Shown: one piece after another, positions 32,974 through 34,585 of the stretch
How the letters are laid out: every line of letters begins with the position of its first letter
Numbering within the stretch: position 1 is the first letter of the stretch
DNA from: a bacterium
GTDB lineage: Bacteria > Actinomycetota > Acidimicrobiia > Acidimicrobiales > Bin134
DNA: 64,000 bases
Reading direction: 5' to 3'
Assembly (NCBI GenBank): GCA_028819295.1
Contig: JAPPMA010000032.1
Location: forward strand, 1 to 64,000
The notes under the pieces: generated by a model
Seen by the model: the letters and a program-made list of their open reading frames with translations, nothing else
The model's database searches: none
What the model was told of the DNA's origin: nothing
Program-made: the position numbers and the translations under genes

Positions 32974-33966
32974 TCAGAAGCGCAGTTCAGGCAACAGATA
33001 GGTGTTTCTTATCCGCTCCCCAAACTCAGGACTAGACAATGCGTCAGGCCCGTCAGGCACGACGACGCCCCGGCGGGCGCAGTCCTCGGCCATCGTGGCG
33101 ATCAGGGTGGGCTCGTCGAGATCGTCCAAATGCTGGTCGTAAACCTCAGCCTCTCCTGCATCGTCAAACACGAAGGCCTTCCAGGAAAGCGACACCCGCA
33201 CCTCGTCGAAACCATGGCGCACCGGTTCGCGGCCGGGCTCCTCGATGATCCACTGGCGATCGGGGGTCAGCGTGATGGCGGCTTCAAAGCCGTACTTGGC
33301 GTAGTCGGCCTCGGCGCCGATCGACTCCACCCGGTGGGGCATGTGGTCGTTGTCGCCCATCACGCCGTAGTTGTAGGGCGGCTTCACCGTCACCATGTCG
33401 CCGTCCCACCCCTCGGGCCAGTAGGTGAACTCCCCTCCCGTGCCCAGGTAGTACCAGCACACCGCGGTGGCGATCCGCACCCGCCAGCGGTCGAAACACC
33501 CAGAGTGCATCATGCAGTTGAGCAGCCAGGTGGGGTATTCGTCCCGGCCCACCCCCCGAAAGGAGGGTATGTCGGTGTGGCGGGCGTACTGGCCGCTGGG
33601 GGCGTTGATGTTCACATAGGTGAAATAGGGCCGCACCACCTCGGCGCCGTAGAGCTGGCGGGCGGCCTCGATGAACCGGGGGTTGTTGACGATGGTGTCG
33701 GCCCCCTCCACGGCCTGTTCCTCGGCCCCCCACGTCGTGCGGTAGACCGGCGGCACCCGGGGCTCGCCGTCGACCACGTCGACGAACGACGGCACGTCGC
33801 CGGTGCGGGCCCCGGCTCGCAGCGCGGCCCGGCTCTCCATGAACTCTGCGCCGGCCAGCGTCAGCGGATGGGGCGACTGGCGCTGCAAGATGCCCAGCAG
33901 CACATCGGGATCCTCCAGGGCCTGTTGCATGACGACCGGCGGTCGGGGCAGCGTCGTGGTGCGCAT
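32974..33966 (-). CDS. Putative Fe(II)/2-oxoglutarate-type dioxygenase-like protein
   Basis: From ATG 33966 the protein has 330 residues and no signal peptide. The segment FTYVNINAPSGQYARHTDIPSF contains an HxD pair (HTD), and DNDHMPHRVESIG follows about 90 residues later with a candidate distal His. This spacing fits the double-stranded beta-helix of Fe(II)/2-oxoglutarate oxygenases. The family is unnamed to me and the substrate is unknown. It is divergently oriented from the selenoprotein gene with an 79-bp intergenic region, so co-regulation is possible. Confidence 0.55.
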   Translation of the reverse strand: MRTTTLPRPPVVMQQALEDPDVLLGILQRQSPHPLTLAGAEFMESRAALRAGARTGDVPSFVDVVDGEPRVPPVYRTTWGAEEQAVEGADTIVNNPRFIEAARQLYGAEVVRPYFTYVNINAPSGQYARHTDIPSFRGVGRDEYPTWLLNCMMHSGCFDRWRVRIATAVCWYYLGTGGEFTYWPEGWDGDMVTVKPPYNYGVMGDNDHMPHRVESIGAEADYAKYGFEAAITLTPDRQWIIEEPGREPVRHGFDEVRVSLSWKAFVFDDAGEAEVYDQHLDDLDEPTLIATMAEDCARRGVVVPDGPDALSSPEFGERIRNTYLLPELRF

Positions 33967-34045
33967 CGCCACACAATACGGCACAAGATAGGGTGGATCG
34001 GAAGGGCTCGCCCGAGTCGCCCGGAGTCTTCCGCGAGGAGCTTCC

Positions 34046-34585
34046 ATGGAAACCACCACCATCTTGTTGCCTACTGGCGAGGTGAACGAGCCCGCTCAGC
34101 CGCTGGCCATTCGCAAGGACTCGCTGGCCGGCGCGACGGTGGGCATCATCGACAATGACATGTGGCGATCGATGGCGATCATGGCCGACGAGCTGTCCCG
34201 CCAGTTGGTGGACCGGGCCGGGGCGGCCGGGGTGGTCGTTAGGGCCAGCGGTCCGATGCACGGCGCCGATCCCGAGCAGTATCAGCAGGAGATGGAGGCA
34301 TTCCACGCCGAAGCCGACGCGGTGATCAGCGGTTTGGGCAATTGAGGCTCATGCACGGCGTGGTGTATCCACGCCAGCAGCACGCTGGAAGCCATGGGAA
34401 CCCCGGCGGTTGGCCTGGTGACCGAGCAGTTCCGGGGCTTGGCCGAGGCCACCGCCCGGGGCCTGCGGGTGGACAATCAGCCATTGATCGTGTTGCCGTC
34501 GGGCTACGACGAGTGGTCTGAGGATGACATCAGGGCCGACATCGCCTCCCGCCTCGACGACATCGTGGACGCTTTGGTGGCATGA
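34046..34585 (+). CDS. UGSC family selenoprotein (Sec at in-frame TGA)
   Basis: The frame from ATG 34046 meets TGA at 34343-34345 and then continues open in the same frame to 34585, giving 179 residues. The context is GLGN-U-GSC-TAW, the motif that names the UGSC (seleno)protein family, and homology-like sequence continues through the TGA (MGTPAVGLVTEQFRGLAE). A hairpin fitting the bacterial SECIS rule starts downstream of the TGA. The Sec100/Cys103 pair (UxxC) would be a redox centre like those in thiol oxidoreductases. Ordinary gene callers would split this gene in two. Sec machinery genes (selA, selB, selC, selD) are not in the window. Confidence 0.88.
34352..34379 (+). promoter_or_regulatory. 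Bacterial SECIS-like element
   Basis: GGCGTGG (34357-34363) pairs perfectly with CCACGCC (34369-34375) around the loop TGTAT. TGC (34352-34354) and GCA (34377-34379) extend the stem below a small internal loop. The apical loop begins 18 bases after the TGA and has G at its second position. Both features fit the published bacterial SECIS pattern (loop 16-37 bases after UGA, G in the first two loop positions). SelB would bind it to deliver Sec-tRNA. Confidence 0.8.

Follow-up and report, generated by a model that had tools for sequence, protein, structure and literature searches.

Two short open reading frames follow each other here, separated by a TGA, which raises the question of whether the TGA ends one gene or is a sense codon within a single gene, and, if the latter, what kind of enzyme the product would belong to. 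In the window, the whole stretch of 64,000 nucleotides that was analysed, the frame opens with ATG at 34046, reaches the TGA, and continues without a shift to a second TGA at 34583-34585. Read through, the two apparent genes are one, and its product carries selenocysteine (Sec) at residue 100 and cysteine at residue 103 (U100 and C103). The original prediction held that frame, family-like sequence and GC bias all run through the TGA, and that is what we find. GC content by codon position is nearly equal on the two sides (0.66/0.45/0.85 before the TGA and 0.63/0.51/0.86 after it). In a Pfam profile search the joined protein scores 118 (118.3) bits against PF24696, its halves 46 and 52; the joined match spans positions 2-171 of the 172 of the profile and passes the gathering score of 25. 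Since both halves match, the similarity to homologues does not stop before the TGA.

UGSC proteins have been on lists of selenoproteins since 2008 or earlier (PMC2398784, PMC9312934, PMC13188914), and the gene described here is another member of that known family. It resembles the family (PF24696, NF041046, example ABI76733) in its whole-length match, in the UGSC motif and in the place of the Sec. It differs in being one of five divergent paralogues, in having a partner gene that is absent from the papers we found, and in its score in the NCBIfam profile search, where the UGSC_fam equivalog NF041046 gives 84.1 bits, below the curated cut-off of 125. Judged by sequence, the protein is thus a member of the broad UGSC family but stands outside the curated equivalog. 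On the opposite strand lies a divergent gene (32974-34062, minus strand, 362 aa as listed, no Pfam match) whose listed start overlaps that of the UGSC gene. Because in several congeners the aligned part starts no earlier than residue 20-33, the gene probably begins lower than listed, which would leave a shared promoter region near 33970-34045.

Features of the locus, in positions of the window
Feature	Position	Strand	Details
UGSC-family selenoprotein gene	34046..34585	+	179 aa + stop, Sec at residue 100; PF24696, AlphaFold2 model
In-frame TGA read as Sec (U100, motif GLGN-UGSC)	34343..34345	+	Homologue column; Cys in genomes without selA
Bacterial SECIS hairpin	34352..34379	+	Core stem 34357-34363/34369-34375, loop 34364-34368, outer 3 pairs 34352-34354/34377-34379
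Partner protein gene, 351 aa	34626..35681	+	Co-occurrence; AlphaFold2 pLDDT 93.7; conserved C76, C175, D25-G26-x-P28, R143, E178, W185

Does the organism have the means to insert selenocysteine? In the genome examined (3.56 Mb in 108 contigs, 95% complete), selA and selB are neighbours on one contig (C99), which also carries a tRNA-Sec with anticodon UCA, while selD is found on another (C65). All four matches pass the curated family cut-offs, and for tRNA-Sec, selB and selD only matches above the cut-off were counted, because many control genomes also match below it. The Sec system that had been expected is therefore present: selA, selB, selD and tRNA-Sec(UCA). The match of selD itself spans an in-frame TGA, so that the selD of this genome is probably a selenoprotein as well.

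The homologues bear more directly on the TGA. The genome has four further UGSC genes, and each of the five contains exactly one in-frame TGA. In the genus, UGSC occurs in 19 of 22 genomes, with one TGA in every full match except a single copy in G005; we rejected that copy as a Cys form, as a run of N covers the site. Among 99 UGSC genes from 80 loci in many phyla, the TGA stands at the same column in 96; of the other three, one is a degenerate gene with CAG and two have a Cys codon, including one from the archaeon Natrialba. We also surveyed 148 genomes of the class. TGA-type UGSC genes occur in 43 of them, and selA is found above its cut-off in all 43; seven genomes have only TGA-free UGSC genes, and five of these seven lack selA (Fisher p ~1e-5, a value that overstates independence, as the genomes are related). 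All 16 TGA-free genes that were read in the class, some of them from genomes that also hold TGA copies, have TGC or TGT at the Sec position. This pattern of TGA versus TGC or TGT is a classic Sec/Cys exchange. An alignment of homologues had been proposed as a check on the reading, and its outcome is Sec (TGA), or Cys in Sec-less genomes, at exactly the U100 column.

As to the genomes of the genus that have no UGSC, the loss of selA was considered as the reason and rejected, since UGSC-less congeners keep selA; three congeners with small genomes (G002, G006 and G017; 1.8-2.2 Mb) lack UGSC and retain selA. In one congener with UGSC (G003) no selA was found, which is probably due to an assembly gap.

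It might be argued that UGA is read in this organism as some other amino acid through a genome-wide change of the code. Only the in-frame TGA itself favours this idea, while TGA serves as the stop codon, in the expected place, of the UGSC gene and of other genes in the window, a tRNA-Sec(UCA) is present, and the residue that replaces Sec in Sec-less genomes is cysteine. In our opinion such a code change is extremely improbable.

The candidate SECIS hairpin had been described as a 7-bp stem with a 5-base loop 18 nt after the TGA, and this description is confirmed: the stem is GGCGTGG/CCACGCC, the loop TGTAT begins 18 nt past the TGA, and three more pairs form outside the stem. By stability the hairpin does not stand out (z = -1.98; 10 of 200 shuffles are equally stable), and an Rfam search of the window matched no SECIS family. 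The fixed position of the hairpin, together with its conservation, is stronger evidence for a SECIS than stability. Seventeen congeners share exactly this stem, while adjoining synonymous or third-position sites vary. Of 95 UGSC genes from distant relatives, 87 can form a stem of at least six pairs at the place of the hairpin; among 474 control stretches the figure is 66. The commonest distance from TGA to loop in the distant genes is 19 nt, and the best common geometry reaches a pairing of 0.90, against a maximum of 0.80 in 300 shuffles. Two pairs covary by switching between G-C and C-G (77/7 and 51/35), with third codon positions on both sides, and such covariation is not readily explained by protein coding.

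It could still be maintained that translation ends at this TGA, leaving two separate small genes or a pseudogene, as the standard table 11 reading would have it, and the ordinary stability of this one hairpin agrees with that. Against it stand the TGA at one column in nearly all homologues, the Cys in genomes without selA, the codon bias that continues past the TGA, the conserved hairpin and the complete Sec machinery. We consider a true stop hardly credible, and we regard it as practically certain that the UGA at 34343 is a Sec codon.

What, then, does the protein do? The checks proposed with the original prediction and carried out here all favoured it. It spoke of an enzyme of unknown reaction, and this still holds; it overlooked the partner gene just downstream, the four paralogues and a relationship to the reductase subunits GrdB and PrdB. 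The AlphaFold2 model of the UGSC protein (pLDDT 94.6) consists of alternating strands and helices, with Sec100 immediately following strand 92-98, where helix 101-116 begins. The PDB structures that match it are of flavodoxin, Rossmann and receiver type (Foldseek E 2e-4 at best; nearly tied VIA Z values of 8.5-10), and no thioredoxin is among the matches listed; sequence searches of the PDB gave nothing useful. We rejected a family assignment from these structures, since the matches are generic and single out no specific relative. The fold is predicted to be flavodoxin/Rossmann-like, and by its strand-helix alternation and its matches the model seems not to be thioredoxin-like, although a thioredoxin-like fold has been proposed for UGSC (PMC2398784, PMC13188914).

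A more specific lead comes from profile comparison. When 62 UGSC proteins were compared with ten Sec domains of GrdB/PrdB type, hhalign gave a probability of 94.9 with Sec aligned to Sec, and with the Sec masked the score was 46.4, against a maximum of 20.6 in 100 column shuffles. The similarity spans only about 78 columns and is mostly borne by GrdB, PrdB-like proteins alone giving a weak score of 24; the link is one of profile with profile only, as a search with the PF07355 profile did not match UGSC. In these alignments UGSC resembles the GrdB/PrdB Sec domain, Sec on Sec. The Sec of GrdB (glycine/sarcosine/betaine reductase, PF07355) lies in TST-UGT-TRCG and aligns to that of UGSC, and a downstream pattern, 'IEKxGIPxA ... 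PHPxGDP', is common to both, whereas UGSC lacks the N-terminal part of about 350 residues. With PrdB (D-proline reductase) UGSC shares a short Sec subunit, a UxxC motif followed by helix and strand, and a larger, in the case of UGSC putative, partner subunit. It differs from PrdB in being shorter and in its weak profile similarity to PrdB-like proteins on their own. Most genomes of the genus, though not this one as assembled, have a PrdB/GrdB-like selenoprotein with the motif UPLCTRTVC (for example, with the Sec codon at 1927 of locus L055). In genomes of the same class, some stretches hold GrdE-like genes together with GrdB homologues whose reading frame contains a TGA (TSTUGT or a similar motif).

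The partner protein matches no family in Pfam or NCBIfam. It belongs to a widespread set of proteins of about 350 aa, with at least 564 confirmed relatives, for which neither database has a model. Relatives lie near all five UGSC genes of the genome, in a gene order that varies between paralogues. When the search started from the partner family, 97 of 110 partner genes at 80 loci have a UGSC gene on the same strand within 1.5 kb, upstream in 60 cases and downstream in 37, with a median gap of 86 bases. Six of the 13 exceptions lie less than 2 kb from the end of the sequence examined, and three have a UGSC gene just past 1.5 kb. Over 91 pairs, the pairwise distances in the two families correlate with r 0.81, where permutations reach at most 0.16, and swapping partners within a locus lowered the correlation in 1000 of 1000 trials. 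By this measure the two families co-evolve, and because such swaps always lower the correlation each UGSC seems to be matched to a partner of its own. Fusion of UGSC to a domain "Unknown_1" was reported in the GOS paper (PMC2398784).

With GrdE, the pyruvoyl subunit, the partner has no profile similarity (hhalign probability 0.12), and homology to GrdE or to the N-terminal part of GrdB was rejected at the sequence level (probability 0.1-0.4). Hence the substrate-activation chemistry of Grd and Prd is not simply transferable. Comparison of the partner model with solved structures gave no convincing fold match, and we claim no fold: a class I fumarase fold, which gave the best Foldseek rows, was rejected (E 6e-5, but TM 0.23 and rmsd 18), as was a chorismate mutase fold, whose best VIA Z of 6.4 covers only about 90 residues.

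Beside the pairs in other genomes are genes for receptors of tripartite and dipeptide transporters, luciferase-like monooxygenases, amidohydrolases, LysR regulators and SelB, with no single neighbour conserved. Such neighbours suggest the catabolism of imported compounds. We propose that the Sec-decoded UGSC protein and the 351-aa protein form a two-subunit catabolic selenoenzyme of reductive cleavage, a proposal to which, taken as a whole, we give a little less than an even chance. SelB and tRNA-Sec would decode the UGA by means of the hairpin just downstream. UGSC would be the small Sec subunit, flavodoxin/Rossmann-like, in which a helix that follows strand 3 directly bears the Sec at its N-terminal end, and the 351-aa protein would be the large, substrate-binding subunit. 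U100 would attack a small substrate and bring about reductive cleavage of a C-X bond, on the model of D-proline reductase and glycine reductase (the glycine and proline reductases are reviewed in PMC13188914); C103 would then resolve the intermediate by forming a selenenyl sulfide, after which a thiol system would regenerate the enzyme. Paralogous pairs may serve different substrates. What the analysis shows is the Sec coding, the linkage to the partner gene, the predicted fold and the sequence relationship to GrdB/PrdB; the subunit contact, the substrate role and the chemistry of the pair are inferred. The shortness of the GrdB/PrdB similarity and its weakness towards PrdB-like proteins, the lack of likeness between partner and GrdE, and the generic fold matches weigh against the proposal.

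One may instead see in UGSC a general thiol-disulfide or peroxide oxidoreductase, with UxxC acting like CxxC and the partner serving as a dedicated protein substrate or electron donor. The UxxC motif, with C103 in 96% of UGSC members, speaks for this, as do the thioredoxin-like fold and redox role suggested in PMC2398784. The predicted fold, however, alternates strand and helix and matches flavodoxins and response regulators, and a genome that carries several paralogous pairs among catabolic genes is better accounted for by substrate-specific enzymes. We think a general oxidoreductase the less likely of the two.

The linkage of UGSC to a partner gene, the flavodoxin/Rossmann-like fold prediction and the GrdB/PrdB resemblance go beyond the literature found: neither a paper naming the partner gene nor one describing a link between UGSC and GrdB/PrdB turned up in a search that had most subscription journals and all preprints outside its reach. 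We put forward, tentatively, a wider idea, namely that UGSC and its partner are a new class of two-subunit selenoenzyme, in which a GrdB-like Sec domain joined to a non-pyruvoyl substrate subunit, its fold as yet unassigned, would cleave bonds in imported small molecules reductively; paralogous pairs would define separate substrates, and the class would range widely over Chloroflexota, Proteobacteria, Acidimicrobiia and further phyla. Sec is found in most UGSC homologues, and Cys forms dominate only where the Sec machinery is missing, a distribution that suggests a reaction for which selenium is much better suited than sulfur. An obligate partner, together with homology that points to glycine and proline reductases, makes a testable two-subunit enzyme of what was an "unknown redox protein".
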